A stretch of 57,615 nucleotides of DNA. Origin: Dialister succinatiphilus YIT 11850 (GTDB taxonomy: Bacteria; Bacillota; Negativicutes; Veillonellales; Dialisteraceae). The notes beneath the pieces were generated by a model that was not told where the DNA came from, ran no database searches, and saw only the letters and a program-made list of their open reading frames with translations. Numbering within the stretch: the stretch's first letter is position 1; the number at the start of each line of letters is the position of its first letter. This document shows positions 598 through 19,603 of the stretch, one piece after another. The stretch covers positions 674,252 to 731,866 of the forward strand of contig NZ_JH591188.1 of NCBI RefSeq assembly GCF_000242435.1, written 5' to 3'. The translations under genes and the position numbers were made by a program.

Positions 598-954
598 TTG
601 CTAAATGAAATTGTTCATAAACCTTGGGGGCGTTATATTATTTTATATAGGGGGCTAAATTATAAAATGAAGCTTATTGAAATCAACCCTGGAGCCAAAT
701 TAAGTTTGCAGCTTCATGCTTATCGCAGTGAGCATTGGATCATAACTGGTGGAATTGCACTTTGTACTCTTGGAAATAAGAGTATGATTTTCAGAAAAGG
801 GGAGAGTCTAGATATTCCTGTTGGGGTTAAGCACCGGTTAGAAAATATAGGGAATTCTTTGCTTTGTGTTATTGAAGAGCAAAGAGGGAAATATATTGAA
901 GAAGATGACATTACACGTCTTGATGATATATATGGAAGAATTAAAGATAAGTAA
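598..954 (+). CDS. Cupin, type II mannose-6-phosphate isomerase C-terminal-like
   Basis: A 118-residue single-domain protein that aligns by eye with the C-terminal cupin of bifunctional ManC/PMI proteins: it opens with KPWGRY, has the EINPGAKLSLQLH metal-site region and IPVGVKHRLEN, and ends with EDDITRLDDIYGR. In that family the cupin interconverts fructose-6-phosphate and mannose-6-phosphate; here the guanylyltransferase half is absent. The start is TTG, chosen because GGGAGGT at 585-591 is ideally placed. It is first in a same-strand cluster and probably supplies or edits a hexose or related sugar phosphate. The exact substrate is unknown. Confidence 0.75.
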   Translation: MLNEIVHKPWGRYIILYRGLNYKMKLIEINPGAKLSLQLHAYRSEHWIITGGIALCTLGNKSMIFRKGESLDIPVGVKHRLENIGNSLLCVIEEQRGKYIEEDDITRLDDIYGRIKDK

Positions 955-1007
955 TTAATTGATGAGATGATAACCATTAAGATTATTACCAATATAAGGT
1001 GGATAAA

Positions 1008-1943
1008 ATGAAAACAATATTAGTAACTGGTGGCGCAGGGTTTATTGGCTCACATTTATGTAAAAAGCTTTTGCAAAGTGGTAATAAGGTAATTTGTTTG
1101 GACAATATGTCTACTGGTTCATATGATAACATAGCCAGTATGCTTCCTAATCCTAATTTTAAATTTTATAATGCAAACATTGTTGATGCTCTTCAATTTG
1201 ATGCAAATGAAATTTATAACCTGGCTTGCCCAGCAAGCCCAACTCAGTATCAGCAAGATCCAATAATGACATTAAGGACTTGCTTTTTAGGAGCATTAAA
1301 TGTACTTGAATTGGCTAAGAATTTAGGTGCTCGTGTTCTACAAGCTAGTACTAGCGAGATATACGGAGATCCTTTGATACATCCACAGTTTGAAGATTAT
1401 AATGGAAATGTTGATATTACTGGACCTCGTGCTTGCTATGATGAAGGCAAGCGTATTGCGGAAACTCTTTTTTTTGATTACAAGAGAAAATATGGAGTGG
1501 ATATTTGTGTGGTTAGGATTTTTAATACATATGGTCCTAACATGTTGATTAACGATGGGAGAGTTATTCCCAATTTCATTGCTCAAGCTTTACAGGATAA
1601 AGATATTACTGTTTATGGGAGTGGCTTGCAAACACGAAGCTTTTGCTATATTGATGATTTAGTTAGTGGGCTTATAACTGCTATGGGAAAAAATAATTTT
1701 TCTGGGCCGATAAATCTTGGAAACCCATATGAAATGACAATATTAGATTTGGCAAATCTCATAATTAAGCTAATAAATTCAAATTCAAATATTATTCATA
1801 TGAAATTACCAATGAATGATCCTGCTCACCGAAAGCCTGATATCGAAAAGGCACGAGCAGTCCTTGGGTGGAGGCCCTATACATCAATCGAGGAAGGAAT
1901 TGAAAAGACGATTAAATATTTCAAAGAAAAGTATAAATTCTAA
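1008..1943 (+). CDS. NAD-dependent sugar-nucleotide epimerase/dehydratase, UDP-glucuronate decarboxylase-like
   Basis: About 311 residues of the extended short-chain dehydrogenase family. Visible are the nucleotide-binding TGGAGFIGS at the N-terminus, the active-site ASTSEIYGDP and the YDEGKRIAE (YxxxK) motif. The run NLACPASPTQYQQDP and GPRACYDEGKR resemble UDP-xylose synthases, which convert UDP-glucuronate to UDP-xylose, more than dTDP-glucose dehydratases. ATG 1008 is preferred to the in-frame GTG 999 because AAGGTGG at 995-1001 sits six bases before it. It probably makes the activated sugar used by one of the cluster's glycosyltransferases. Substrate is inferred from sequence resemblance only. 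Confidence 0.8.
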   Translation: MKTILVTGGAGFIGSHLCKKLLQSGNKVICLDNMSTGSYDNIASMLPNPNFKFYNANIVDALQFDANEIYNLACPASPTQYQQDPIMTLRTCFLGALNVLELAKNLGARVLQASTSEIYGDPLIHPQFEDYNGNVDITGPRACYDEGKRIAETLFFDYKRKYGVDICVVRIFNTYGPNMLINDGRVIPNFIAQALQDKDITVYGSGLQTRSFCYIDDLVSGLITAMGKNNFSGPINLGNPYEMTILDLANLIIKLINSNSNIIHMKLPMNDPAHRKPDIEKARAVLGWRPYTSIEEGIEKTIKYFKEKYKF

Positions 1944-2022
1944 ATGCCATTATTTTTATGTACAATAATAAAATAAATGAAAATGAGGAACTAGTGTTTT
2001 ACCCGCTTGTGAAGTGACTATT

Positions 2023-3291
2023 ATGAGAGAAAAAATCAATTATCTATTAAAGACAATTAATAACCTTTGCAATAAAAGAGTAATGGTTATAGGGGATGTA
2101 TTTTTGGATGAATATGATTTTGGGGAAGTGAATACAGTTTCTACCGGTATAAAAGTTCCGATTGTAGAAGCAAAAATTAGTAGGAATTCTCTTGGCGGCG
2201 CTGGAAATGTAGCTGCGAATATATCAGCATTAACATCTAATGCCTCTTTTCTGACGCAGTATGCTAATGACGATTCAGGCAAGAAAATTGAACAATTGCT
2301 TATTCAATACAATATTTCAACTCGATGCTTCCCGGCAAATAGGAGTATAGTTAAAAAGCGTATATATATTGATCATCAACAGGTAATGAGACTAGACCAA
2401 AATGAATATACATATATTAATCATAAAATGATTCGCGATGAAATTAGAAAGAGCAAGTGTGATGTAATTGTTGTTGCGGACTATTCTTTCGGAATGGTAG
2501 ATCAATTTGTTTTAGATTGTTGCAAAGAAAAGTCTTTGTGTGATCATATCCCCTTAATATTTTCATCTAGAAAAGTAGAAGAATTTGATACTAGTGACAT
2601 TTCATTGATTGTAGTTAATGAAAGAGATGATTCGAAGTCCATTAAGTACAATTTCAATTTGCAAAATGATACAAATACAGACATCATAATTACAAGAGGC
2701 CCTTTAGGAATTAAGGCTCTTGTGAATCATAAAATTTATGATGTCTCAACTGTTAAAGATTTACCAGTTAATGTGTCAGGTGCTGGTGATACCGTATTGG
2801 CAATAGTATCATTGCTATATCAATCAGGTATTGACGTCGAAACATATCTATGCTTAGCAAACATTGCAGCTGGAATAGCAATCAAGAATGAATTGACTTA
2901 TAGATTACGGCAAGAGGATTTAATATCACGTTTATTTGAATTAGAATGCATGCATGCTAAATACCATAAATGTGTAGATTTAGATTCTGCTAATATAATT
3001 GTTAATACATGGAAAAAGCAGGGGAAAAACATTGTTCTTATTGATAAGTGTTTAAATCCTTTAGACAGTGAATGGTTAATGATGCTTGAGAAAAATAAGA
3101 AAAATAATGATAAGATTATTCTTACAATACGAGCTAATGAGAGTGAAAATAGGCTCCTCATCAATAAGCTTAGTAATCAGACTATATTATTATCATTTAT
3201 AGGATTGTTTGACTTAATTGTTATTCTTGGAAGTGAAGGAGCGAATGACGTAGTAGAGGTTGTCAAACCAGATATACACATTCAATCATAG
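2023..3291 (+). CDS. HldE/RfaE-like sugar kinase with degenerate nucleotidyltransferase tail
   Basis: The first roughly 300 residues are a PfkB-type kinase like the N-terminal domain of HldE, which makes heptose-1,7-bisphosphate: IGDVFLDEYDFG, LGGAGNVAANI and catalytic NVSGAGDT are present. The last roughly 110 residues keep the layout of the HldE cytidylyltransferase-like domain (VLIDKCLNPLDSEW, LFDLIVILGSEG, VKPDIHIQ) but lack the catalytic HxGH and stop before the usual KGGDY. So the kinase looks active and the adenylyltransferase does not. The in-frame GTG at 2014 is an alternative start. Two nucleotidyltransferase-type genes nearby could replace the lost activity. The substrate could be heptose-7-phosphate or another sugar phosphate. 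Confidence 0.75.
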   Translation: MREKINYLLKTINNLCNKRVMVIGDVFLDEYDFGEVNTVSTGIKVPIVEAKISRNSLGGAGNVAANISALTSNASFLTQYANDDSGKKIEQLLIQYNISTRCFPANRSIVKKRIYIDHQQVMRLDQNEYTYINHKMIRDEIRKSKCDVIVVADYSFGMVDQFVLDCCKEKSLCDHIPLIFSSRKVEEFDTSDISLIVVNERDDSKSIKYNFNLQNDTNTDIIITRGPLGIKALVNHKIYDVSTVKDLPVNVSGAGDTVLAIVSLLYQSGIDVETYLCLANIAAGIAIKNELTYRLRQEDLISRLFELECMHAKYHKCVDLDSANIIVNTWKKQGKNIVLIDKCLNPLDSEWLMMLEKNKKNNDKIILTIRANESENRLLINKLSNQTILLSFIGLFDLIVILGSEGANDVVEVVKPDIHIQS

Positions 3292-3357
3292 CAATGATTA
3301 AATATTGTGGGTATTAATACTAATAATGATACCTGGCTGATATAGGAAGCGATATAT

Positions 3358-4077
3358 ATGACAGATTTAGATACATTATATGAAGTTATGAAAATAGTTT
3401 CTGGAGATAGCAGCAACAAGACGTCTGATATTCCATTATTTTCTTTTGAAGGACTTCCTGGTTCTGGTAAAACAACACAGATAAAACTGGTTACGGAACA
3501 ATTGGAGCGTTCATATGGGAAAGGGTATTACATAGATTTACCAACAAAATCATCAATTGGATTAATTTTAAAAAACTTATATTCTAATCCAACAAAATGG
3601 AATGAATTACGGAAAAAGGCACCCTGGTTTAATCCTATTTTTATCTCAGCAGATTTGCGCTTAGCTTTGGATGAGGCTAAAAAAGAGGGGGCTAGATTTG
3701 CCATCATGTCTAGAGGTATTTTATCCACATACTACTATAATTTAGATGCTTATGATAGACAAAGTCTCAATGAACAATGGGATTCTTTGAAAAATGATTT
3801 AAAAGCATTTATCATTCCTACAGCTATTATTTTTTTGCGTTTGCCGGTAGAAGAAGCACATAAGAGGGTTATTATTCGAAATCGTGGGCCTTTACGTAAA
3901 ATGGATGAAATCTCAGAAATGAAAAAAGATGAAGTCAAGTTGGGAGAATATCTGACACGGTTAAATCATATTCCGGTACATTATGTAAATGCAGCTGGTA
4001 CAACAAAATCTGTAACTTCAAGAATTGTGAAAGTGTTAGAGGGTTATTTTCATGACAATCATAATGGGACAATATAA
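3358..4077 (+). CDS. P-loop nucleoside/nucleotide kinase, thymidylate kinase-like
   Basis: A 239-residue protein with a Walker A motif GLPGSGKTT at residues 32-40 after a short polar extension. The acidic/arginine region SADLRLALDEA and IMSRGILST resemble the DR(Y/H) region of dTMP kinases, and RNRGPLRKMDE resembles a lid. It is diverged enough that dTMP is unlikely to be its only possible substrate; phosphorylation of a pathway intermediate fits the context better. Its end overlaps the next gene by 14 bases, suggesting translational coupling. Confidence 0.65.
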   Translation: MTDLDTLYEVMKIVSGDSSNKTSDIPLFSFEGLPGSGKTTQIKLVTEQLERSYGKGYYIDLPTKSSIGLILKNLYSNPTKWNELRKKAPWFNPIFISADLRLALDEAKKEGARFAIMSRGILSTYYYNLDAYDRQSLNEQWDSLKNDLKAFIIPTAIIFLRLPVEEAHKRVIIRNRGPLRKMDEISEMKKDEVKLGEYLTRLNHIPVHYVNAAGTTKSVTSRIVKVLEGYFHDNHNGTI

Positions 4078-4729
4078 TGGAGATAATTACCAATTAACGC
4101 GTTTTTATGAAAATGAAATTCCGGGTTATATTTTTAAAGCGATAGTGCAGCTTGTAAAAAATGAAAATGTAATTATTCGTGGTGGGTTATCGTACGTTTT
4201 ATTATTTGAAAGGGAGAATTATATTCTGAAGGATATTGACCTTTTGGCATTAAATGGTAATGTGGATAAGTTAGTTCCTTATTTTTATAGTGCAGACATT
4301 GTGTATATAAATAAAAATACTCATGGGGAATGTGTAATAACTGCATTTTGGAAAAATCAGGATACCTATTACAAGGTTGATATTTTGATGAATTCTCAAA
4401 TAGAAGGCGAAGAAACATGCTTTTGGCGAGGAAATAAATGCAAGACGATTACAAAGTCTTTCTTATGGATGGATCGAATGAGAAAAATAGCTGAGAGAAA
4501 GCAAAGACATCATTCTAAAGAGAAAACCTTAAATCATTATTGGGTTGCTAAGTATATTTGTGAATATATGTTATCGACAAAATATTTACTTCATCCAGAA
4601 CATGCAAAGTTTATTTCTTCGAAAATAAAAGAAGTAAAAAATTCATTAGTAGATTTAGTAGAGGAAAAGGAACTCAATGCTTTTCTAAAGCTAAATGATT
4701 TTATAATAAATAAATCATTAGGCAATTAG
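4064..4729 (+). CDS. Putative nucleotidyltransferase-fold protein
   Basis: About 221 residues. IIRGGLSYVLL followed by LKDIDLLAL is the GG...DxD signature of minimal nucleotidyltransferases of the pol-beta superfamily, and a third acidic position may be in YYKVDILMNS. The C-terminal half is helical and charged. The frame opens at ATG 4052; ATG 4064 is the second choice and neither has a strong Shine-Dalgarno sequence. The gene overlaps the kinase before it. It may transfer a nucleotide to a sugar or small molecule, possibly replacing the dead transferase domain of the HldE-like protein; this is inference. Confidence 0.55.
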   Translation: MGQYNGDNYQLTRFYENEIPGYIFKAIVQLVKNENVIIRGGLSYVLLFERENYILKDIDLLALNGNVDKLVPYFYSADIVYINKNTHGECVITAFWKNQDTYYKVDILMNSQIEGEETCFWRGNKCKTITKSFLWMDRMRKIAERKQRHHSKEKTLNHYWVAKYICEYMLSTKYLLHPEHAKFISSKIKEVKNSLVDLVEEKELNAFLKLNDFIINKSLGN

Positions 4730-4857
4730 GAACGATGGGATTCCAACAGAGTTAATGCTGATAACTTTGGAAACTTTGATAATCAAGTGTATTGATTGTA
4801 TTCCTGCGAATTTTCTTTTATATTGAGATTGTCGGATCTTCTGATTTGGAGGTAAAC

Positions 4858-5859
4858 TTGAGGATTTTAATTTGTCAATTGAGAAACCATGGAGACATTA
4901 TAAGATGTTTTCCTTTGATTGATGCAATCAAAGCTATATATAAGGACGCTTTCATTGGGTTTACTTGCTTTCCGGAAATGATTGAAACCTGTGCTTTATG
5001 CCATAATATTGATGTTGTTATTGCTCAGCCTCGGTTTAAGTCTGTAACAGATACGCAAGATGAAACTAGAGTTCTTGATTGTAGTATTTTAGAGGATGCG
5101 GTAGCAGAAGCTAGAAAATATAATTTTGATTTGTATATTGATTTACATGGTGTATTTCAAAGCGCATTGTTTGGTGCGATATGTGGTATAAGAACACGCT
5201 TGGGAAGAAGTAAAGAAACAGCTAAAGATGGGGCATCGCTTTTTTATACTGTGATAGCAGAAGTAAAAGAAAAAGAACTTAATAGAATGGAGAGACATTT
5301 TATCATTACTCGTAAAATTTTAAAAAATGTCAAGCCTGTTTATATACAGGTAAAGAAAAAAGACTATATTACAATCTTTCCTGGGAGCAGCAAAAAAGGA
5401 ATATTAAAAAGATGGAGTACGGATAGATATATAAAAATCGCTAATAAATATAGAGATAAATATTACGTTAGAATGGTCTTAGGTCCTGAAGAAAGTGATC
5501 TAGTGAGGTATATTCGTAATCGGATAGATATTGATATAGTAGAATGTAATTCTTGGGAAAAAATAAGTGAACTAATATCGGAAAGTGGTATTGTAATAGG
5601 AAATGATGGCGCATTTGTACATTTAGCAGTATGGAAGGGCATACCATCTATAATGATTTGTGGACCGTTGTCGCCGGTAGTTAATGGAATATGGAAATAT
5701 GGTATTGGGCAAACTATTTCTGTCCCAAAACATTGTATATGTAACTATTTGTGGCAAGGAAAATGTGATTATAATCATTATTGCATTGATAAAATTACTG
5801 TTGCAGATGTGATTAAAGCAGTTAGTCGTTTGGAGATATATTTAAATGAGAGAATATAG
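4858..5859 (+). CDS. Glycosyltransferase family 9 (heptosyltransferase-like)
   Basis: About 333 residues with the GT-B layout of ADP-heptose:LPS heptosyltransferases: N-terminal RILICQLRNHGDIIRCFP, central IFPGSSKKGILKRWS, and IGNDGAFVHLAVWKGIP, the counterpart of the family's GNDSGxxHLA. The C-terminal cysteines (CICNYLWQGKC...YCIDKI) are also typical of GT9. The frame is open from ATG 4792, but GGAGGT at 4848-4853 directs initiation at TTG 4858, which restores the family N-terminus. Together with the HldE-like kinase it suggests transfer of an activated heptose-like sugar. It overlaps the cysteine desulfurase gene by 14 bases. Confidence 0.85.
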   Translation: MRILICQLRNHGDIIRCFPLIDAIKAIYKDAFIGFTCFPEMIETCALCHNIDVVIAQPRFKSVTDTQDETRVLDCSILEDAVAEARKYNFDLYIDLHGVFQSALFGAICGIRTRLGRSKETAKDGASLFYTVIAEVKEKELNRMERHFIITRKILKNVKPVYIQVKKKDYITIFPGSSKKGILKRWSTDRYIKIANKYRDKYYVRMVLGPEESDLVRYIRNRIDIDIVECNSWEKISELISESGIVIGNDGAFVHLAVWKGIPSIMICGPLSPVVNGIWKYGIGQTISVPKHCICNYLWQGKCDYNHYCIDKITVADVIKAVSRLEIYLNERI

Positions 5860-7045
5860 AGCAGATTTTGCTGTGTATCGGAATAATCCGGATTTATGCT
5901 ATTTAGACTATGCGGCTACAACCTTTATGCCGGACTCAGTTATAGACGCTTGGATTAATTTTCATCAGTATTATGGCATAAGTATTGGTAGAGGTAGCAA
6001 TTATCTATCTGCTAAAGCAAATAGAATTTTCGAAGAATCGTCAATGAAAATTCTTGACTTTTTTCATGCTACTAAAAAGTATCAGCTTATTTACACAAAA
6101 AATGCAACCGAATCAGCTAATTTATTGGCATCTATTTTGGTAAACATGATAAATCCAGGAGACATTATTGTAACAACTGAGTATGAACATCATAGTAACC
6201 TGTTGCCATGGATAAAATTAGCATCGGATAAAGATGCGATCGTTCTAAAATTACCAATATTACCGAATGGAAATATTGATTATGATTTTATTGAGCGCTC
6301 TCTATATGACAAAATTAAAATAATAACTGTAACTATGGAATCTAATGTTAATTCTTATACGCCACAAATTGAAAAAATAAAATTATTGAAAAAAGAAACT
6401 AATGCAATACTCGTTTTTGATATGTCACAAGTCGTAGGACATTCGAAGGTTGATTGCGATTCAATTGATGCTGATGCTTATTTTATGTCAGCTCATAAAA
6501 TGTATGGCCCTAAAAATATAGGTGGGCTATTAATAAAAAATGATATATGTGAAGAATTACCTCCGTTTATGCTAGGCGGAGGTATGGTTTGGAGCAGCTT
6601 AGGCGGAAAGCCTACATGGTATAAGGATTTTAGAAAATATATGGCAGGAACATTTGATGTCGGACTTGTTTTTGCTTGGGCTAAAGCGTGCGAATATATG
6701 AGAGAAATCGGCATGACTCAGATTGCAAGTTCTGATTTTAATCTAAAGAGGTATTTGAAAGAGAGTGTGGCTCATCTTCATAAGTTCTGTTTAATTCCTG
6801 AAGGGACAGAACATGGTTATTCGCTAAGTTCCTTTACACTTGATGGAATTCATTCTCATGATGTTGCTGCGCTGTTATCAGAGGAACATATTGTTATAAG
6901 AACAGGTCATATGTGTGCACAACCTACGTTACAGGCTTTTCATCAAGAAAGTATTTGCAGAGTATCATGGGGGATTGGCACAGATGTATCTGATGTAGAC
7001 CGATTTATAGATGCTATTAGTGAAAGAGTGAATAATAGAAAATGA
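5846..7045 (+). CDS. Cysteine desulfurase (SufS/CsdA-type)
   Basis: 399 residues of the class V aminotransferase fold. PLP-site features are visible: TEYEHHSN near 111-118, FDMSQ at 191-195 and the Schiff-base lysine K218 in SAHKMYGP. The active cysteine is C357 in RTGHMCAQP, equivalent to the RxGHHCAQP loop of group II enzymes. It should take sulfur from L-cysteine as a persulfide and hand it to an acceptor. The next gene, overlapping by four bases, encodes an IscU/SufU-like scaffold, so the acceptor is probably its product. Placement in an AT-rich biosynthetic cluster rather than a suf operon argues for a dedicated pathway role. Confidence 0.9.
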   Translation: MREYRADFAVYRNNPDLCYLDYAATTFMPDSVIDAWINFHQYYGISIGRGSNYLSAKANRIFEESSMKILDFFHATKKYQLIYTKNATESANLLASILVNMINPGDIIVTTEYEHHSNLLPWIKLASDKDAIVLKLPILPNGNIDYDFIERSLYDKIKIITVTMESNVNSYTPQIEKIKLLKKETNAILVFDMSQVVGHSKVDCDSIDADAYFMSAHKMYGPKNIGGLLIKNDICEELPPFMLGGGMVWSSLGGKPTWYKDFRKYMAGTFDVGLVFAWAKACEYMREIGMTQIASSDFNLKRYLKESVAHLHKFCLIPEGTEHGYSLSSFTLDGIHSHDVAALLSEEHIVIRTGHMCAQPTLQAFHQESICRVSWGIGTDVSDVDRFIDAISERVNNRK

Positions 7046-8844
7046 TAGACCATAGTTATAATCCAATGTGGGCGCCTGATTTTGTCCTTGAATCAAGTGG
7101 AGTGGCATGTGGAGATAAGATATCTCTTTATGCGATTAATGTTCATGGAAAAATATATTTTCAATATTTCATGAAATCTTGCAATGTTTCAAGAAGAATG
7201 GCTGATTATCTAGAGAAAGCTTTTTCCGGTAAAGATGAAGCTGAAATTCGAAATCAACTGGAAAGACTAATTAAAGGGGATTATAACGAGAAGGAAAATT
7301 GGATCTATGAATATATCCCCAATAGACAAGGGTGCATAGAGGCGCCGGTTAGTCTTCTTAAAGCATTATTTTTTCAAAATAAATCTTGTATTGTAAAACA
7401 CCACTCTTTGGATTGCGATGCATGCGTCGAAATGAGGAGAATTAATTGGGATATCCCTGCTTCTGCTAGCATTGATGCTAAGAAAACGGTACATAATATT
7501 TATCAGGCAATTCGAAAAGAAGAGGATATGACTGAATCTAGATTGCAAAAATTAGGTTTGGCACAACTCTCAGATAAGGAGCAACTTGAATTTGAACAGC
7601 TCATGCGTTCTATGACACCCACTGAAATAAAGAAAATGAAGAGCCTTCGTTTAGCAGCTTTATTTTTGAATAATTGCTATAAATATGATATATCCCCGAA
7701 TGCGGCTGTTGTTTCTTTAGCGTATAAGCAGCTCGTAAGTATGAAAGTCGCAGATAAAGAGATTGAAAATGTCAAAAATTTTATAAATTCGAATAATTTA
7801 AATATTGAACTGGTAAAGGGGAGCAGGCTTAATTCATTATATCCTCAAGGCTTTTTGAGAACTCATATGGATTATGATTTTCTAGCTCAAAACCTTAATG
7901 AAGCATTTTTATTAATTGATTATTTGGTCAATAATTGTGATTATAAACTTGTTTTAGGCGGTTCTGTACCTTTTTCATTTAAATTGGTTGAACATAGAAA
8001 TAAAGAAATTATTACAGGACATATTCATTTGGAAAAAATCTTACAGGATCAATTTCAAGCTGTGATTGATATTAATATGGGGGGATTTCCATTAGGACGA
8101 ACTGATGTTATTCAAGCTGCAGAACAATTAAGCCCTGAGGATTTAGCCTGCATAACGGTAGCGCATTTGTTTAAGCATGATCACGCTTTTATTAAGGATA
8201 TCAATGATTTATATTATATGTTACGAGGCAATTGGTTAAATAAAGGCATTTTAAATCAAAAGATAAGGGAATATGGCTTGGAATTTCTATTTGGAAAGGC
8301 AGTAAGTTTTATAAATGATAAGTTTGGGCTTCAAGATAACGGCTTGAATCATATTATCAAACACCCTCTTTGTTTTATTACCAATAATGATTGGCCATTT
8401 TCTAGGAGTTCACATTTTAAGGTTAGGATGATAAATTTACTGCTGAGTAGTATAAATCAATATGGTGTCATTAATGGAATAACTGAGACAAAAAAACAAT
8501 TATTGGGGACCTCAAGCCAAAGAGTTCCGGCAATGTTTTCTAGTGCCTTTCATTATTTGAATCAAAGAACATATTTGTTTCCAGTAGTATTTTTCTCACA
8601 CTATGTCGATATAGATGAAAATAAGGGCGTGATGAGAATCGGAAACTATCCGATTTATACTTATGATAATATTGCAATACTTCCAATTGGAATTTTTTTG
8701 ATGCATCACAATAAAAATGAATCAATTGATAGAAGACAATTGGAGAAAAATATTGATGAAGTATTGGGGCTGATAGGTATAACGGAAGAAGACTGCAATT
8801 ATTCTTATTTGATGGAAGCGAGAAAGGATACATGGTTATATTAA
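7042..8844 (+). CDS. IscU/SufU-like scaffold fused to an NTP_transf_5-like nucleotidyltransferase
   Basis: 600 residues. The first roughly 140 resemble U-type Fe-S scaffold or sulfur-acceptor proteins: VACGDKISLYAINVHGKI (C23), MKSCNVSRRMADYL (C47) and LDCDACVEMRRINW (C125, C128) match the three conserved cysteine positions. A helical linker follows. From about residue 260, SLYPQGFLRTHMDYDFL and VLGGSVPFSFKLVEH resemble the nucleotidyltransferase family PF14907 (NTP_transf_5), with the DxD-type acidic pair in DYDF. The gene starts four bases inside the desulfurase gene, so the two are coupled. The fusion suggests sulfur or a cluster is delivered to a nucleotidylated substrate. Domain calls are by eye; the fusion itself is a continuous open frame. 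Confidence 0.7.
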   Translation: MIDHSYNPMWAPDFVLESSGVACGDKISLYAINVHGKIYFQYFMKSCNVSRRMADYLEKAFSGKDEAEIRNQLERLIKGDYNEKENWIYEYIPNRQGCIEAPVSLLKALFFQNKSCIVKHHSLDCDACVEMRRINWDIPASASIDAKKTVHNIYQAIRKEEDMTESRLQKLGLAQLSDKEQLEFEQLMRSMTPTEIKKMKSLRLAALFLNNCYKYDISPNAAVVSLAYKQLVSMKVADKEIENVKNFINSNNLNIELVKGSRLNSLYPQGFLRTHMDYDFLAQNLNEAFLLIDYLVNNCDYKLVLGGSVPFSFKLVEHRNKEIITGHIHLEKILQDQFQAVIDINMGGFPLGRTDVIQAAEQLSPEDLACITVAHLFKHDHAFIKDINDLYYMLRGNWLNKGILNQKIREYGLEFLFGKAVSFINDKFGLQDNGLNHIIKHPLCFITNNDWPFSRSSHFKVRMINLLLSSINQYGVINGITETKKQLLGTSSQRVPAMFSSAFHYLNQRTYLFPVVFFSHYVDIDENKGVMRIGNYPIYTYDNIAILPIGIFLMHHNKNESIDRRQLEKNIDEVLGLIGITEEDCNYSYLMEARKDTWLY

Positions 8845-8848
8845 TAAA

Positions 8849-9805
8849 ATGAAAAAATTATGTCTTGTTACCTATACCAGAAAAAATGAATGTTATACAC
8901 AAGCAATAGATTTAATTGCTCAAAAGCTAAATGAAGATTTCATGGGAGATTTTAAAGTAGTAATTTGTTGCGAAGAGATGATTCATGTTCCTCAAAGTAA
9001 TTACGAAATAGATATATTCCTAAAAAAGGGGACTAAATACAGAAAGCTTATATCCTTAATGGAAAATGATGACTCTTTATATTATTTGAGTATTGATAAT
9101 GATATTTCCGGTAATATACCTGCAATTAGACAATTTGTAAAAAAATTAATGTGTCAAAGAGTTGATATTGGTTGGGGGCGTATTTATGTAGACTCTCCAC
9201 ATGGGTTAATATCCAACTTGGTTGGAGTTGATAAATTACTTTCACATAATTTAATCAGACCCACATTATGGAGTCTAGGTGTTGGAATATCGGTTCCTGG
9301 ACAAATTTTTTGTATTAAAGGCGGGCGATTTAGAGGGAATTTAATCAATTTAGATACATTTTTAGATGATTTAGCACTAGGCCTATATGTAAATGTTAAT
9401 AATTGCAAAAAATATATTGTAAATAAGAACCTGGGGTACGAACGTCCAAACAATCACTTTTGGGGATTATGGAATCAGAGAAAAAGGTGGGCAATTGGAT
9501 ATGGCTCAATACTTAAAGGCGTATTTGGAATAAATAATTATAGGTGGAAGGTTATAATACATGGACTGGGATATCATTTTTCTTGGATATTGAACTGGGC
9601 AATTGCAGGACTGCTTCTGGTGAAATTTTTCCCGATTTGTATTTTGTATCTTATATTTCTTAGCTTTATAATTGTAGGGAAAAATTTAAAAATGCTTCCT
9701 TACGCTTTTCTTTATCAATTTATATTTCCATTATTTCATGTTGTATGGATGATCAGTCTAGTAAGATTCCTTTCAAAGGGTGATTCAAATGAATATTATT
9801 CATGA
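8849..9805 (+). CDS. Membrane glycosyltransferase family 2
   Basis: 318 residues. GT2 hallmarks are IDNDIS (DxD) near residue 79, LDDLALG (catalytic aspartate region) and QRKRWAIG (Q/RxxRW). The C-terminal third has two to three hydrophobic segments (about residues 235-310), so the enzyme is probably held at the cytoplasmic membrane and acts on a lipid-linked or exported acceptor. It most resembles the ceramide-glucosyltransferase-like or cellulose-synthase-like branch. It starts four bases after the scaffold fusion gene and ends 17 bases inside the radical SAM gene. The donor and acceptor are not readable. Confidence 0.75.
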   Translation: MKKLCLVTYTRKNECYTQAIDLIAQKLNEDFMGDFKVVICCEEMIHVPQSNYEIDIFLKKGTKYRKLISLMENDDSLYYLSIDNDISGNIPAIRQFVKKLMCQRVDIGWGRIYVDSPHGLISNLVGVDKLLSHNLIRPTLWSLGVGISVPGQIFCIKGGRFRGNLINLDTFLDDLALGLYVNVNNCKKYIVNKNLGYERPNNHFWGLWNQRKRWAIGYGSILKGVFGINNYRWKVIIHGLGYHFSWILNWAIAGLLLVKFFPICILYLIFLSFIIVGKNLKMLPYAFLYQFIFPLFHVVWMISLVRFLSKGDSNEYYS

Positions 9806-11015
9806 TAAGTATATTATACAAAATGAAACATATCTAAAGGGAATGATATTAACAAATGGGATTGTTTTTACACAAAATGCATTGAATGTAGCTCTGATTG
9901 AAAAAGCTAAAATTCAAAACCAGGTATACAATATGCCTATTAATTCTGAAGCCAACAGACCTCAGGAGCTTATCATAACCAATAGGAAAGATAATTATAG
10001 TACAGTTGTATCATGTGTTTCTCCGGTTGATGAAAGCAAGGCTGTTATTATAGATGCAGATTATAGTGGTGAGCTTCTTGCTATTGTTAATAAAAAGATA
10101 TTAGATGATGTAGTTATACATTATGTACAAGAGCCAACTTATTACCATAAAAGAATCACAAACGGAGAATTAGTAAAGAGGTATGTATCTGCATGTGGGT
10201 TAGATGAATTAGATATACTCCCGTGGAAGGGGTGCTCCATATCGAAACCATGCCGTTTTTGTGGAGTTAATAACTATATAAGAAGAGGTGATGTAACAGC
10301 AACTGCAGTTGCTTCGAGTATATGTTTTTGGAATAAAAGATCTTATGATTATTTGAGAAATCTACAGGAAGCGATAAATATCGCATTGAAAGATGCATGT
10401 TATAAGGAACATTTCCATTTGATACTAATAGCTGGCAATTTAGCAAACGATAAATTGGATTTGGAATGTAGAATATTTAGTGAAATAGCCCAATTTATAA
10501 TGCCTTTAGCTGGGCATAAAAGTAGGGAGGGGATAGTGGCGGTTATTTCACCACCTAATGATATAAATCTACTTAGATTACTAAAAAACAGTGGCGTTAC
10601 TAATGTTGTTTTTAACCTAGAAGCTGTAACCGAAGAGGGCTTTAAAAAGTATTGTCCAGGGAAAAATGATTTAGGATTTAATTATTTTATGGATAGGCTA
10701 AATGCTGCTGTTGATATTTTTGGTAAAGGGCATGTATGGAGCAACCTTGTCTTAGGACTGGAATCAGTTGATTTGATGTTACCTGAATGTGAAGCTTTAG
10801 CCGAACGGGGAGTTGTTATGAGTGCGAATGTGTTACATTTTGATAAAGGGAATACTTTAGATTGTGGTGCTCCAGAACTTGGAGACGTTGTTAATTTTTT
10901 CTTTGAATTAGAAAGAATCAACAGTAAACATAATTTTATCCCTTTTTATTGTGCCAAAGCGCTTAGAACGAGTCTAACTAATGAGGCACATGAAAAAAGA
11001 ATTGTATTAAAATAG
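9789..11015 (+). CDS. Radical SAM enzyme with CX5CX2C cluster motif
   Basis: About 408 residues from ATG 9789. The likely [4Fe-4S]-binding cysteines are C149, C155 and C158 in KGCSISKPCRFCGVNN, a CX5CX2C spacing instead of the usual CX3CX2C; this variant is known in HmdB-type enzymes. Downstream LILIAGNLA, VVFNLEAVTEEGFKKYCPGK and VWSNLVLGLES match the barrel strands of BioB/HmdB-like proteins. About 130 residues precede the motif, with no recognised domain. Next to sulfur-donor genes, it could perform sulfur insertion, methylation or carbon rearrangement. The reaction cannot be told from sequence. Confidence 0.75.
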   Translation: MNIIHDKYIIQNETYLKGMILTNGIVFTQNALNVALIEKAKIQNQVYNMPINSEANRPQELIITNRKDNYSTVVSCVSPVDESKAVIIDADYSGELLAIVNKKILDDVVIHYVQEPTYYHKRITNGELVKRYVSACGLDELDILPWKGCSISKPCRFCGVNNYIRRGDVTATAVASSICFWNKRSYDYLRNLQEAINIALKDACYKEHFHLILIAGNLANDKLDLECRIFSEIAQFIMPLAGHKSREGIVAVISPPNDINLLRLLKNSGVTNVVFNLEAVTEEGFKKYCPGKNDLGFNYFMDRLNAAVDIFGKGHVWSNLVLGLESVDLMLPECEALAERGVVMSANVLHFDKGNTLDCGAPELGDVVNFFFELERINSKHNFIPFYCAKALRTSLTNEAHEKRIVLK

Positions 11016-11027
11016 GAGAGGCTAATT

Positions 11028-11858
11028 TTGAAAGTTAAATACTTAGGCACCGGTGCAGCAGAGGGAATTCCAGCATTATTTTGTCATTGCGCTATATGTG
11101 AACAAGCGAGAGTATTAGGTGGGAAAAACATAAGGACTAGAGCGCAGGCACTTATTGATAATGAGTTATTAGTTGATTTTGGACCGGATACATTTTTTCA
11201 TACATTGAAATATAATATTAGATTGGCTGATATTGAATATTGCTTAATTACTCATAATCACGATGACCATTTATATGCACAAGACCTGAGAGCTCGAAAG
11301 CGAAGTAGAGCAATTTTAAGACCCGGAACACCTCCATTAAACGTTTATGGAAGTTTAGGGGTTAAGAATGCATTGTGCCCTGATAAAGAGGGTTTTATAA
11401 CTAAAAATAAAAGTGTACGTTTTGTATTATTTAATGCATATGAACGAAAACAAATTGGAAAATTTACTGTGACCGCATTGCCTGCCGTTCATGGTGGGGA
11501 TAATCCTTTTGTATATGTCATACAAAAGGGAGGCTCTACTTTCTTATATGCACATGATACGGATTATTTTATGGATGAAACCTGGAAATTTATTAGAGAT
11601 TTAAATTTTCATTTTAATGCTGTTTCGTTAGATTGTACTGAAGGTAAAAAGCATATTGATTATATGGGACATATGAACTTTGAAAAAATGGTATATTTTT
11701 GTAAAAAAATGCAAAGTATCCATGCCATAAATGATAAAACTCTGATTATTGCAAATCATATTTCACATAATGGTTTAGTGAACTATGCAGAGGCATGTGG
11801 AATAGCGCAGAATTATGGAATAATAGTTTCGTTTGATGGAATGGAAGTGGAAGTTTAA
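11028..11858 (+). CDS. PhnP-like metallo-beta-lactamase-fold hydrolase
   Basis: 276 residues. LGTGAAEGIP at the N-terminus and THNHDDH (H76, H78, D80, H81) are the metal-site motifs of the metallo-beta-lactamase fold. FCHCAIC (C19, C21, C24) matches the zinc-binding cysteine loop found in PhnP, a phosphodiesterase acting on phosphoribosyl cyclic phosphate. Further ligands are probable in AVHGGDNP and YAHDTDYF. Start TTG 11028 follows AGGAGAGG. It probably opens a phosphodiester or cyclic phosphate in the pathway, or acts on a sulfur or lactone bond. It abuts the following kinase gene with no gap. Confidence 0.75.
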   Translation: MKVKYLGTGAAEGIPALFCHCAICEQARVLGGKNIRTRAQALIDNELLVDFGPDTFFHTLKYNIRLADIEYCLITHNHDDHLYAQDLRARKRSRAILRPGTPPLNVYGSLGVKNALCPDKEGFITKNKSVRFVLFNAYERKQIGKFTVTALPAVHGGDNPFVYVIQKGGSTFLYAHDTDYFMDETWKFIRDLNFHFNAVSLDCTEGKKHIDYMGHMNFEKMVYFCKKMQSIHAINDKTLIIANHISHNGLVNYAEACGIAQNYGIIVSFDGMEVEV

Positions 11859-12452
11859 ATGTTAATAATTATATTTACGGGACCTCCTGCAAGTGGGAAA
11901 AGCAGCATTGCAAATCGGGTAGGAGAGATATTAGGGATTAATGTTATCTCAAAAGATGAATGCAAAATACGACTTTTTGAAACCTACGGATTTACAAATC
12001 ATGCAGAAAAGAAAAAACTTAGCATCCAAGGCGAAAAGAATATGTATAAGGAATTGCTTAATTATGTAAATACGGATAAGGATATAATTGTTGATAATAA
12101 TTTTAAGAATTTTGATGAATTAAGGAAGATTATAAGAGAATCAACAAATGATGTTCAAACTATTTGTTTTAGTTGTATGGCTGATTATCCTATACTGGCT
12201 GAAAGGTACAATGCACGCATACAGAGTGGTAGTAGACATCAAGCATTATATACGTTGAATGTTTATCCAGTAATAAATGGTATCAGTAAGTTTCACCCAA
12301 TTATTACATCGCAAGATGTGGAAAGAATTGAAGCAAATGTGAAAGAAAAGAGCTTTGGAAATTGTGTGCAATACATAAACACTAATAATATAAAAAGAGA
12401 CTTTACCCAAATTGTTACAGATGTAATACATTATATTGAATTGTGTAGGTGA
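11859..12452 (+). CDS. AAA/zeta-type P-loop kinase
   Basis: 197 residues with Walker A GPPASGKSS at residues 8-16 and the family layout of small-molecule kinases related to zeta toxin and chloramphenicol phosphotransferase: ISKDECKIRLF (catalytic-base region), DIIVDNNFKNFDELR, and CFSCMADYPILAERYNAR near the lid. Within this cluster it is more likely to phosphorylate a pathway intermediate than to be a toxin, since no antitoxin gene is adjacent. The ATG directly follows the stop of the metallohydrolase gene, and the gene ends four bases before the next ATG. Confidence 0.65.
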   Translation: MLIIIFTGPPASGKSSIANRVGEILGINVISKDECKIRLFETYGFTNHAEKKKLSIQGEKNMYKELLNYVNTDKDIIVDNNFKNFDELRKIIRESTNDVQTICFSCMADYPILAERYNARIQSGSRHQALYTLNVYPVINGISKFHPIITSQDVERIEANVKEKSFGNCVQYINTNNIKRDFTQIVTDVIHYIELCR

Positions 12453-12456
12453 GAAA

Positions 12457-13623
12457 ATGAAGGAATGGGCTAAAATAGTATTAGAATCAAAAAATCCCAA
12501 AGTTTTATTGATGCTTTCCGGTGGCAAAGATAGTATTGCAACTGCAATTTTGCTTAAAGAAAATAACATCAATGTAGAGGCTATTCATTTTATTCATGCA
12601 TGGGGATCCTCTATACCTACTAATGAGGCCAAGAGAATTTGTAGCGAGTATTCAATCCCTTTGAAGATTGTAGATTTTACAGCAGAGTTTTGTTCATCAA
12701 TTTTAGGATATACAGGTGGCCGACCTTGTTTGCTGTGTAAAAAGGAAATGTATAAGAAGTTATTAAGTATAATTTGTGAAAAAGATTATGGTTGGTTAGC
12801 TATTGGTGACAATGCAGATGATCGTACTACTATAGCACGTATTAAGAATTATATCCTAGATAGTAGTGCGAATAAGAGCCTGGAATGCACAAGCTATTTT
12901 GGATCTGAAATGGGAATTAAATTGCCAGATGGGATGAGAGTATTAAGGCCTATTATTCATATGAAAGCAATAGAAGTCGAATCATTCCTTGCAAGGAAAC
13001 ATGTCAAAGTTCGCAGGATAAATTCAACTGGAGATAAGTATTTTGAATATCATAGGGAAGGATGCCCAATTCAATTTGCTGATTTAGGAGTACCGTTAAC
13101 AACCAGCATATTTAATAAATTGAAAGTATATAATGAGGCTGTGACGGAATATGCACGAGAAAATCATTTTTTGGCATCTGTGCATATTCCATCTACTTTT
13201 GTGGTTACTGTTCCGAAGGGGTATGAAGAAAAATCCTTACAATATTTAATTAGTAGAGGCCTGGATGTTAACCTTGAGATAAATAGACAAAAAAATGAAG
13301 GGAAAATGTATTTTGCATATATAAAAAATATATCTGCAGAACTTTTAAAAAGTCGAATGTATAAAAAAATTGTGTCGCGAATGAGTGAGAGGCTAGAAAT
13401 TAAATGCATAAAGGACGAATATAGTATAGCTGACAAGTTAATATCTGCAGATGTAACTGGTCTCGGAGTGCATTTATCTTTCTTTTTTGACTTTGTAAAT
13501 ATGAGAGCAATGATTCATTTAGAGTTTTATGATGATTCAAGTCTTAGAAGGGAGTTCGGAATTTTTGATAATTTAATTGTTGAATTATTTCACACAAGAG
13601 ATTACATTGTGGCTCATAACTGA
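12457..13623 (+). CDS. PP-loop ATPase, TtcA/TtuA-like thiolation enzyme
   Basis: 388 residues from ATG 12457, preferred over TTG 12436 because TAGGTGAG precedes it. The PP-loop SGGKDS is at residues 21-26, so the substrate is activated by adenylation. C91 and C94 (RPCLLCKK) and C203 (REGCPIQF) reproduce the CxxC...C pattern that holds a [4Fe-4S] cluster in tRNA-thiolating TtcA and TtuA. GDNADDRTT and RPIIHMKAIEVESFL are also family-like. The last roughly 170 residues do not resemble the TtcA tail and may hold another substrate domain. It is last in the AT-rich cluster and the likely user of sulfur mobilised by the desulfurase/scaffold pair. Confidence 0.75.
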   Translation: MKEWAKIVLESKNPKVLLMLSGGKDSIATAILLKENNINVEAIHFIHAWGSSIPTNEAKRICSEYSIPLKIVDFTAEFCSSILGYTGGRPCLLCKKEMYKKLLSIICEKDYGWLAIGDNADDRTTIARIKNYILDSSANKSLECTSYFGSEMGIKLPDGMRVLRPIIHMKAIEVESFLARKHVKVRRINSTGDKYFEYHREGCPIQFADLGVPLTTSIFNKLKVYNEAVTEYARENHFLASVHIPSTFVVTVPKGYEEKSLQYLISRGLDVNLEINRQKNEGKMYFAYIKNISAELLKSRMYKKIVSRMSERLEIKCIKDEYSIADKLISADVTGLGVHLSFFFDFVNMRAMIHLEFYDDSSLRREFGIFDNLIVELFHTRDYIVAHN

Positions 13624-15849: not shown

Positions 15850-16164
15850 ATGAAAGTAGTCAAAGGCAATTTTGGAGAAGGGAAAGGGAAGGCCCCGGTT
15901 GAGGGAAAAGCATTGGAGGAGGTGCCCTTTGAGCATAAGCTGGTGGACTTTGCCAAGGCAAAGGAGGAGATGGAGGAGGAAACGAAGGGGGACCGCGCTC
16001 TGGATGATTTCCTCTCCTCCCTCACGCCGGAGCAGCTGGCGGCGCTGGACAGGGTGACAGAGTCCATGGCGGACGAAGCCTTCGATGCCCTGGACGATGC
16101 GGACGAGCTCATGGATGAGCTGGATGAGGAAATCGACAGGCTCTTTGACGGTCTGGATGATTGA
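15850..16164 (+). CDS. Small acidic protein of unknown function
   Basis: 104 residues, very rich in Glu and Asp. No signal peptide or membrane segment is visible. The C-terminal part (ALDRVTESMADEAFDALDD...) looks like an amphipathic acidic helix. AGAAAGG at 15834-15840 makes ATG 15850 a better start than ATG 15841. It ends ten bases before the LRAT-fold gene and is probably co-transcribed with it. The charge could suit a partner or inhibitor that masks a basic surface; this is a guess. No family recognised. Confidence 0.6.
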   Translation: MKVVKGNFGEGKGKAPVEGKALEEVPFEHKLVDFAKAKEEMEEETKGDRALDDFLSSLTPEQLAALDRVTESMADEAFDALDDADELMDELDEEIDRLFDGLDD

Positions 16165-16174
16165 AGGTGAAAGT

Positions 16175-16660
16175 ATGGACGATATCTGCGATGCCCTTCT
16201 GGGCTATGCCCTGAAGCGGGTGGTTCTGGGAGCCCATGATTATCCGGAGTCCCACAAACGCCTCTACCCCGGCGACGTGCTCTCTGTCTCCCGCTGGGGC
16301 AATCTGTATGAACATTTTGCAGTGTACATCGGCAAGGGTCTGGTGGTACACTACGCCTCCGATGACGGCGACTGGGGCGGCGACGTGCGGGTGAGAAAGG
16401 CGGCGCTGGACGACTTCGTGGCCGACAGTGACGGCTATCGCATCTGCCGTTTCCCGAAATCCATGCCCATCGCCGGCTACCACCTCTACAGCCATAATGA
16501 AACGGTGGAGCGGGCCCTGTCGAGGCTGGGAGAAACGGACTACAGCCTCTTTTCCAACAACTGCGAACACTTCGCCATCTGGTGCCGGACAGGATTGTCA
16601 TTGTCAAAACAGGTGGAAGAGTTTCTGAGGGAAATCGTAAGGGACACGCCTTTAGCGTGA
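16175..16660 (+). CDS. LRAT/NC-domain protein (NlpC/P60-related thiol acyltransferase fold)
   Basis: 161 residues. LYPGDVLSVSRWGNLYEHFAVYIG carries the first conserved His of the lecithin retinol acyltransferase family and NNCEHFAIWCRTG carries the catalytic NCEHF cysteine. Family members transfer acyl groups or hydrolyse lipids or amides; bacterial members are mostly uncharacterised. The frame opens earlier (16085), but GAAGGTGAA before ATG 16175 and the preceding gene's stop favour the later start. No signal peptide is seen, so the product should be cytoplasmic. It sits with the acidic protein upstream and the membrane-module genes downstream. Confidence 0.75.
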   Translation: MDDICDALLGYALKRVVLGAHDYPESHKRLYPGDVLSVSRWGNLYEHFAVYIGKGLVVHYASDDGDWGGDVRVRKAALDDFVADSDGYRICRFPKSMPIAGYHLYSHNETVERALSRLGETDYSLFSNNCEHFAIWCRTGLSLSKQVEEFLREIVRDTPLA

Positions 16661-17186
16661 GGGGTGACGGCCCTGCGGGCCGAGGGCGCGGTTTTTCAAT
16701 TTTATCATAAGAGGCGCCCTTCATCATTTAAAGGGCGCCTACCATTGCCGCCGGAGGCGGCTTTAGGCTCCTTCCCCAGGAAGGAGCTGGGCGAAGCCCT
16801 GAGGATAGGTCCGAAATTTAGAGGAATTGCTTTTTATGCAACTGACTCCCCTATCCTCCGTCGCCTTCGGCGCCCCCTTGCTGGGGAAGGAGGGCTTTTC
16901 CTCTTCGTCGTGCAGCACTGGTGACATAAAGTAAATCCCGTAACGCTGACTACAAAACGCATCGCCGAAGGCGATACCTCCACCCTTTGAACCCTTTGAA
17001 CCTTCTGAACCCTCACGCCGCAGGCGTGACCATAAGCCGCTGTCAAACTTAAGGACCCTCCGGCCTTTAGGCCAGTCCATCTTAAGAACCTTTCTCCTTG
17101 AAAATAGGTTATAATGAAGAAAACACATTACACGCAATACTCAATACTCAATACTCACAGTCTTTGATTTCATGGGGAGGTCAGGT
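16661..17186. other. Intergenic, dispersed-repeat rich
   Basis: No gene seen. The region begins with a GC-rich inverted repeat (GACGGCCCTGCGGGCCG), holds a copy of the 57-bp hairpin repeat at 16765-16820, a GCAGCACTGGTGACATAAA motif near 16912, and a TATAAT at 17110-17115 just upstream of the HNH gene. Confidence 0.5.
16765..16820 (+). repeat. Dispersed intergenic hairpin repeat, copy A
   Basis: It contains CTCCTTCC...GGAAGGAG and GGGCGAAGCCC hairpins followed by GATAGGTCCGAAA. A near-identical copy lies at 25133-25189. Confidence 0.75.
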
Positions 17187-18584
17187 ATGGACGAGGAGGA
17201 AAGGCGCCGGCGGCGGGCGGAAAATGCATTGGGAGCTCTGGCAGCGGGGGCTTCGGTGGATGAATCGGTGCGGCGGCTGGCTGAGGTGTATCGGAAGCCT
17301 TTGGAGTATAGGGGGAACCGGAAGCTCTTTGACGACGGCATGGCGAAGCGGCTGGCGAAGGAGAATCTCTTTGCTTCGGGGAAGGCGGTGAAGGATCCCT
17401 ATACGGGCAAGAAGCTGTTTCTTCGGAAGCAGGAGGCGAAGCTGGCCTATGGGAAGAAGTGGACGGAGCATCTGGCGGAGGCGGACCATGTGGAACCGGT
17501 GCACCGGATTTTTGAGGCCCATAAGGACGATGCCTGGGTCACCAATAGCGACATCAAGGATGCGGTGAACAGCCCGGAGAATCTGAAGACTATTTCCCGG
17601 AAGCTGAATAATGCGAAACGGGATCGGAGGAATTCGGATTTCTACGGTGATGACAGGTATCTGGCGGATAAGGATATCCACCTTTCCAAAGAGGCGAAGG
17701 AGCGGGCCTTGGAGGACGGCCGGCAGGCGCGCAGCCATGTGGACCGGTCCCTTACCTTGAAGGGGGCAGGAAATCTGGCCGCCGAGTTTCATAACGCCGG
17801 TGTAAAGGCCGCTGTCGGAGCAGCGGTGTTTTCGGGTGCCATGGCGGCGGTGGATAATATGGTGGCAGTGATTGAAGGGAAGAAGGAGCCCGGTGAAGCC
17901 ATCAAAGACCTGGTGAAGGCGACGGGCACGGCGGCAGCCCTTTCCTATTTCGCCGGCGGCGCAGTGAGTGTCATTTCCCATAGCCTTTCGGCATCTTCCA
18001 ATTCCCTGGCCCGCATGCTGGGACAGGCAGGTGTGCCGGGAAAGGTGGTGGCGGCGGTTCTTGCCACGGCAGGGATTATTAAAAATTATATCTATGGAAA
18101 TATCACCGCTTCCGAGTGTATTGCCCAGCTGGGGGAAACGGGGATTGCCACGTCCACCGCGGCGGTCGGCATGTATGCGGGAGCTGTGTTGATACCGCTT
18201 CCTGTCATCGGTTCACTCATCGGCGGTATGGTGGGGTATATGCTGTCAGGAAAGGTGTTTACCGCATTGAGCGGCGCCCTGTCTTCGGCAAAACTGGCCC
18301 GAAAGGAGCGCATCCGCATCGAAAAGGAATGCGGGGAATCCATTCGCCGGATACAGGAGTACCGGCGGGAGCTGGATGAAATCACGGAGACATATTTCAA
18401 GGAAAACCGGAAGGCCTTCGATGAAGCCCTGGGGGATATGGTGTCGGGCCTGAAGCTGGGGGACGCAGACGGCTATATCCATGGGGCAGACAAAATCATT
18501 CAGCAGCTGGGAGGCAAAGTTTCCTATCATAATATGGATGAGTTTGATGAATTAATGAAGAGTGATACCATCATTAAATTATAA
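17187..18584 (+). CDS. HNH nuclease fused to a hydrophobic glycine-rich membrane region
   Basis: 465 residues. Residues about 60-155 look like an HNH nuclease: DPYTGKKLFL, then EADHVEPVHRI (D100, H101), then NLKTISRKLNNAKRDR with the closing Asn. From about 190 to 350 there are four hydrophobic Ala/Gly-rich segments, including LIPLPVIGSLIGGMVGYML, which look membrane-inserting. A charged helical tail follows. ATG 17187 is chosen over ATG 17172 because GGGGAGGT precedes it. It ends 11 bases before a glycine-rich protein of an unnamed family, so the two are probably translated together. Membrane-linked nuclease architecture is typical of toxins and defence effectors; this role is inferred. Confidence 0.65.
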   Translation: MDEEERRRRRAENALGALAAGASVDESVRRLAEVYRKPLEYRGNRKLFDDGMAKRLAKENLFASGKAVKDPYTGKKLFLRKQEAKLAYGKKWTEHLAEADHVEPVHRIFEAHKDDAWVTNSDIKDAVNSPENLKTISRKLNNAKRDRRNSDFYGDDRYLADKDIHLSKEAKERALEDGRQARSHVDRSLTLKGAGNLAAEFHNAGVKAAVGAAVFSGAMAAVDNMVAVIEGKKEPGEAIKDLVKATGTAAALSYFAGGAVSVISHSLSASSNSLARMLGQAGVPGKVVAAVLATAGIIKNYIYGNITASECIAQLGETGIATSTAAVGMYAGAVLIPLPVIGSLIGGMVGYMLSGKVFTALSGALSSAKLARKERIRIEKECGESIRRIQEYRRELDEITETYFKENRKAFDEALGDMVSGLKLGDADGYIHGADKIIQQLGGKVSYHNMDEFDELMKSDTIIKL

Positions 18585-18595
18585 GGAGGTACATC

Positions 18596-19603
18596 ATGCC
18601 TATTCCATTCATTCTTGGCGGTATTGCTGTGGCGGCCGGTCTTGTGGGAGCAAAGAAGGCGAAGGATGCCAGCGATAAAAATGCCCGGGCGAAACGAATC
18701 AACCGCAGAGCTGACGAAAAGTTTGAGAACGCAAAGAAAGCGCTCCTTGCTGCCCGGGACGAGGCAGGCAGGGCCCTGGAAAATCTGGGGCAGGCGAAGG
18801 TGGATATCCTTCATGGCAGTGTCACCCGTTTCGTGGATACCTTCGGAAAGATTCATCATGTGGAGCTCACCGGTTCTGCCGGAATGGACGAACTGGCAGA
18901 ATTTACGGTGAACGAAGATGCCTTAAAGGAAATGGGGGAACTGGGCAGTCTTGCTTCGAAAATGGTTTCGGGCACGGTGGAAGGACTGGCTGCCGGAGGC
19001 CTCATGGCTTTCGGCGCCTACAGCGCCGCCGGCCTTCTGGGCACTGCCGGTACGGGAGCAGCCATTGCAGGTCTTTCGGGGGCGGCGGCCACCAATGCTA
19101 CCCTGGCCCTCCTGGGAGGCGGCACCCTGGCGGCCGGAGGCCTTGGCATTGCAGGAGGCACCGCTGTGCTGGGCGGTCTGGTGGCAGGCCCTGCCATTGC
19201 GGTGATGGGTTTCATGATGGATGCCAAAGCCGATAAGAATCTGGACATAGCCAAGAGCAAACGGGCCAAAGCGGAAAAAGCGGAGGCGGAAATGAAGCTG
19301 GCCGGAGATGCCTGCCGGGCCATCGGGAAAAGGGCGAATATGTTCAGACATCTGATTTCTGAAATCGACCCTATTTTCAAGTCTCTCATCGGGAAGATGG
19401 AAGCGGTGGTGAAGGAAGAGGGCACAGACTATAGGGACTATGGCGAAGAAGAAAAGAAAACCATTGCCATGGCCCTTGCCACCGCCGGTGCCGTGAAGGC
19501 GGTGCTTGATACGCCGATTCTTACCAAAGAGGGGGCGGTGACAGAGGAGTCCCTTACGGCCTATAAAAAGGTGGAGGCCTTCCTGCCGAAGGTAGAGGGA
19601 TAA
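18596..19603 (+). CDS. Glycine-rich membrane-associated protein, paralogue 1 of an unnamed family
   Basis: 335 residues. Layout: short hydrophobic N-terminus (FILGGIAVAAGLVG), a basic helical region about 30-80, a long Gly/Ala-rich hydrophobic stretch about 119-208 and a charged helical C-terminal domain. RBS AAGGAGG precedes the ATG. The C-terminal pattern (YRDYGEEEKKTIAMALATA, then TKEGAVTEESLTAYKK) recurs in the genes at 23090 and 24143, which are shorter in the hydrophobic middle. The glycine repeats could form a membrane hairpin or oligomeric pore. Function unknown; position behind the HNH gene suggests a partner. Confidence 0.65.
   Translation: MPIPFILGGIAVAAGLVGAKKAKDASDKNARAKRINRRADEKFENAKKALLAARDEAGRALENLGQAKVDILHGSVTRFVDTFGKIHHVELTGSAGMDELAEFTVNEDALKEMGELGSLASKMVSGTVEGLAAGGLMAFGAYSAAGLLGTAGTGAAIAGLSGAAATNATLALLGGGTLAAGGLGIAGGTAVLGGLVAGPAIAVMGFMMDAKADKNLDIAKSKRAKAEKAEAEMKLAGDACRAIGKRANMFRHLISEIDPIFKSLIGKMEAVVKEEGTDYRDYGEEEKKTIAMALATAGAVKAVLDTPILTKEGAVTEESLTAYKKVEAFLPKVEG

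Follow-up and report, generated by a model that had tools for sequence, protein, structure and literature searches.

In Dialister succinatiphilus, a SufU-like domain and an NTP_transf_5-like nucleotidyltransferase domain are joined in a single protein of 600 residues, encoded at 7042..8844 (+) of the window (the whole 57,615-nucleotide stretch of DNA that was analysed), and this fusion is genuine. The protein would combine a dedicated persulfide acceptor of the SufU type with a pol-beta-like nucleotidyltransferase and, together with the cysteine desulfurase encoded upstream, feed a small-molecule sulfuration pathway, a reading that we hold with somewhat more confidence than doubt.

The ORF tables contain the continuous 600-codon frame that the earlier note had described, as well as the four-base overlap (ATGA) between the start ATG of the fusion gene and the stop of the preceding SufS-type gene (5846-7045). 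A scan covering 84,980 species with one genome each, based on short peptide patterns and thus mainly detecting close relatives rather than being exhaustive, returned a single full-length relative, L002:2995-4788, from an uncultured Clostridia MAG. Both proteins share 29% identity over their whole length. The Clostridia gene also lies directly 3' of a SufS-type desulfurase gene, with a seven-base overlap, and the two desulfurases are 36% identical. As this two-gene unit is kept at such a large distance, an assembly, sequencing or frameshift artefact is ruled out; a fusion created by sequencing or assembly was rejected because the full-length homologue has the same one, and the shared upstream desulfurase excludes chance. 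Thus, the occurrence of the same gene pair in one distantly related bacterium indicates a real but very rare device. Single-sequence or two-sequence-profile searches of about 1,800 plasmids, viral contigs and sampled genomes of both lineages (the genomes in partly overlapping samples of 300 from the phylum, 300 from the class, 398 and 391 around the MAG and 195 of its family) found no third family member, the additional matches being other NTP_transf_5-like proteins. No description of this architecture was found in the literature searched, a scope outside which most subscription papers fall.

The SufU-like domain covers about residues 1-113 (7042..7380, +) and carries C23-G24-D25, C47 and R95-x2-C98. 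With a two-sequence profile of this domain, the top match among 177,635 PDB sequences is the T. maritima SufU/NifU protein 6a6f (E = 1.1e-4); of the six further matches, two are B. subtilis SufU, albeit weak (E 0.5-0.6). Aligned by hhalign with a profile of 23 SufU proteins from related genomes, it reaches a score of 32.8, against 22.8 for the best of 60 column-shuffled controls, and CGD, C47 and RxxC fall in register with the SufU motif. The IscU/SufU-like domain that had been proposed therefore emerges from the two-sequence profile but not from the single-sequence test, in which PF01592 (NifU_N) of Pfam gives no match to the fusion at E<=1. An HMM built from the 23 SufU relatives ranks the fusion top of 450 window and locus frames, without significance (E 0.37). 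As for the cysteines, C23 and C47 had been rightly assigned, whereas the profile and hhalign alignments designate C98 of R95-x-x-C98 as the third one, instead of C125/C128.

All these zinc-site residues, C23-G-D25, C47 and R95-x2-C98, are kept in the Clostridia protein, the sole homologue found, so that a lack of conservation, which the earlier note had named as grounds for refutation, is not observed. The spacing between the first and second cysteines fits (x23 in the fusion, x24 in its homologue, x24 in SufU). That between the second and third is shorter, with C47-x50-C98 in the fusion and x56 in the homologue, compared with x63 in the SufU proteins compared and with the range of about 61-63 residues that serves as the criterion for SufU membership. 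The Gly and Ser that stand beside the second cysteine of SufU are also absent. Since both Pfam membership and cysteine spacing fail, the domain is filed as SufU-like and not as a standard SufU. Behind it, outside the SufU alignment, sits the C125-x2-C128 motif, which belongs to an additional invariant stretch, H120-x4-C125-D-A-C128-x4-R133-I-N-W136 (7399..7449, +), identical in both homologues. The AlphaFold models reach a pLDDT of only 37.5 at full length and 36.0 for residues 1-140, too poor for use, because merely two sequences were available for the prediction. Their element order E-E-H-H-H agrees with SufU, and helices start at C47 and near C98, which is no proof at such pLDDT values (36-38). 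A Foldseek search with the N-domain model (pLDDT 36.0) returned noise only and no SufU.

The preceding gene (5846..7045, +) had been predicted to encode the expected sulfur donor, and it does specify a SufS-type desulfurase, found upstream of the fusion in both loci. TIGR01979 is the best of 19 models, at 318.6 bits (below its cut-off of 475), and alignment with the host SufS locates K218 for PLP and C357 for the persulfide. In the SufU-SufS complex of M. tuberculosis, zinc is held by the SufU cysteines together with Asp42 and by SufS His354 (PMC10216065). The strictly conserved interface residues are His352, His354, Asp355 and His371 in SufS and Cys40, Gly41 and Arg128 in SufU, and SufU contributes Asp42, Cys67 and Cys131 as additional conserved contacts (PMC10216065). 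E. coli SufS carries a Tyr in place of His354 and is not a working partner for SufU (PMC10216065). H336-S-H338-D339 and R352-T-G-H355-M-C357 are kept in the window desulfurase, as in the host's own SufS, and the N-domain of the fusion keeps the counterparts of M. tuberculosis SufU C40, G41, D42, C67, R128 and C131. With these residues retained on both sides, the pair has the requirements of SufU-type transfer. The Clostridia desulfurase keeps H-A-H-D and has an Asn at the position of H355, the third interface histidine of the window enzyme. The best matches to SufU, the RxxC motif and the SufU-specific histidine of the partner suggest that the acceptor resembles the zinc-dependent sulfurtransferase SufU more than an IscU Fe-S scaffold.

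An ordinary SufS-SufU pair is encoded elsewhere in the host genome, so that the pair described here is additional. Like the zinc SufU proteins of B. subtilis, M. tuberculosis and T. maritima, the fusion possesses CGD, a second Cys 23-24 residues further on and RxxC, and the gene of its SufS partner lies directly upstream. Unlike them, it is joined to a nucleotidyltransferase, has the shorter C47-C98 spacing and the extra CxxC motif, and is located outside a SUF operon. In PADLOC, the window desulfurase matches SspA and DndA, which reflects general desulfurase similarity. No Dnd/Ssp partner genes were seen among the genes of the surrounding island and, the matches being generic, an anti-phage reading was set aside.

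The C-terminal half contains the NTP_transf_5-like domain that had been announced (residues 238-425; 7753..8316, +), identified by Pfam and motif alignment. PF14907 scores 28.6 bits in the fusion, slightly below the 31.2 cut-off, and 46.0 bits in the Clostridia homologue, above it. KG260, R273, D277, D279 and D343 align with this homologue and with a clear NTP_transf_5 member (L003), and the catalytic acidic triad D277, D279 and D343 is kept. The fusion shares with the family the KG, R-x3-D-x-D and later D motifs as well as the K-D-x-N-D helix region, and differs from it by the N-terminal SufU-like domain. NTP_transf_5 proteins are known mostly as stand-alone ones encoded near peptide or exopolysaccharide gene clusters. 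In the fusion, no domain is assigned to residues about 140-237 and 426-600.

The pair belongs to an island of 13 co-directional genes spanning 13 kb (598..13623, +), delimited by composition and ORF tables. Its GC content is about 31-38%, against about 48-57% just downstream, and the island is probably transferred, foreign DNA. It encodes cupin, NAD-dependent epimerase-like, heptose-7-phosphate kinase-like and thymidylate-kinase-like proteins, a small protein with a nucleotidyltransferase motif (by eye), GT9 heptosyltransferase-like and GT2-like proteins and a P-loop kinase. Downstream of the fusion come a radical SAM protein of the variant_rSAM family (9780..11015, +; NF045502, 138.8 bits, cut-off 125), a PhnP-like phosphodiesterase of the metallo-beta-lactamase fold (11028..11858, +; PDB 3g1p, E=3.5e-7) and a TtuA/LarE-like protein of the PP-loop type that bears SGGKDS and C98-x2-C101 ... 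C210 (12436..13623, +; PDB TtuA, E=1.5e-6). With LarE and TtuA models at about 33 bits, the latter is a candidate [4Fe-4S] sulfur insertase. A [4Fe-4S] LarE takes its sulfur from a cysteine desulfurase, and transfer of a cluster-bound sulfide to the substrate has been proposed (PMC9283937). On this precedent, the PP-loop protein would be a natural client for activated sulfur.

Within the island, the HldE-like protein (2014-3291) is only partly matched over its second, nucleotidyltransferase domain, where LNPLDSEW stands (by eye) in place of the usual HxGH. Heptose nucleotidylation may therefore fall to another island gene. The 225-residue product of 4052-4729 has no Pfam match and displays a motif like that of small pol-beta nucleotidyltransferases (RGG...KDIDLLAL), which makes it a candidate second nucleotidyltransferase of the island. 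Upstream of the island, an IS630-like transposase (by eye) is split over two overlapping frames (L007 7836-8898). Beyond the far end of the island are genes that, by eye, encode a cysteine-hydrolase-like protein (16085-16660), an HNH-like one (17172-18584) and one rich in glycine (18596-19603). In scans for promoters and terminators, the number of sites in the island did not exceed that in shuffles.

The neighbours of the Clostridia pair differ, namely a MoaA-like radical SAM protein, a P-loop kinase, a CYTH protein and a protein without Pfam match. No PP-loop gene was seen near that pair, on a contig that stops about 0.8 kb upstream of the cluster. Neither plasmids nor the related radical SAM loci of other genomes yielded a cluster similar to the island. 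One such genome has a locus (L056 9255-15727) where three related genes of the variant radical SAM type are interspersed, by eye, with genes for sulfonate-type ABC transporters and for S-adenosylmethionine synthase.

A three-step scheme may be proposed. In the first step, drawn from the conserved residues, SufS would form a persulfide on C357, while zinc would be held in the SufU-like domain by C23, D25, C47 and C98; when the two proteins dock, SufS His338 would take over a zinc position, leaving C23 free for sulfur. The sulfur would then move onward for insertion into a small molecule, either via the CxxC-C PP-loop insertase of the island or, through C125/C128, to the compound on which the nucleotidyltransferase acts. 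The nucleotidyltransferase half would add a nucleotide to that compound, activating or tagging it. Sulfur may plausibly be handed directly to a nucleotidylated substrate.

The dedicated-acceptor reading draws on the same fusion and upstream desulfurase in the distant Clostridia MAG, on T. maritima SufU as top profile match, on the motifs that hhalign places in register, on the zinc-site and contact residues of the domain and the H352-x-H354-D355 and R-x-G-H-x-C counterparts of its partner, on the separate SufS-SufU pair of the host, on the retained D277, D279 and D343, and on the C98/C101/C210 PP-loop protein in the same island. Against it stand a family of two members only, models of pLDDT 36-38 and a Foldseek search without SufU, the short C47-C98 spacing, the lost Gly/Ser, the Asn of the Clostridia desulfurase and the lack of a PP-loop gene seen near that locus. 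The N-terminal domain could instead be a dedicated Fe-S scaffold that supplies clusters to the island's radical SAM and PP-loop enzymes, with the nucleotidyltransferase acting separately. A radical SAM gene near the pair in both loci (though of different subfamilies), the CxxC-C cluster motif of the PP-loop protein and the fold and cysteines common to IscU and SufU fit such a role, which is nevertheless rather unlikely given RxxC and top matches of the SufU and NifU types, a partner carrying the zinc-swapping histidine of the SufU type that is absent from E. coli SufS, and a SUF pair already present in the host.

For comparison, ThiI and MOCS3/Uba4 carry AMP-transferring and persulfide-carrying domains on one chain, using PP-loop or E1-like and rhodanese domains, whereas the present protein has pol-beta-like and SufU-like ones; SufE3 (SufE-NadA) of plants likewise joins an acceptor for desulfurases to a client enzyme, but the acceptor fold and the client are different ones. 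The Dialister fusion alone might be a complete activation-and-sulfuration enzyme in the style of ThiI/MOCS3, in which a nucleotide added onto a hydroxyl, phosphate or carboxylate is displaced by the C23 persulfide via C125/C128. This is a doubtful proposal: the CxxC motif is conserved along with both halves and the catalytic acids are kept, but we know of no pol-beta-like enzyme that drives sulfur substitution, and the island includes a separate PP-loop candidate for the sulfur step. That the SufU-like domain is vestigial or regulatory and devoid of sulfur transfer activity seems highly improbable, as all four metal-site residues and the adjoining desulfurase are conserved across 29% identity, even if the sequence has diverged far from SufU and Pfam NifU_N goes undetected.

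Proteins that accept sulfur from desulfurases are as a rule free-standing and work in housekeeping pathways. The attachment of a SufU-like domain to a client enzyme, together with a desulfurase of its own in a transferred island, points to a specialised sulfuration pathway and to a metabolite containing sulfur that is as yet undescribed. It also provides the NTP_transf_5 family, whose function is uncharacterised, with a defined activity context. A single protein that takes persulfide from its own desulfurase and delivers it, with CxxC as relay, to a substrate nucleotidylated by its other half is a long shot in our estimate; if true, such delivery would be a new route of sulfur insertion for a sugar-nucleotide or nucleoside natural product.
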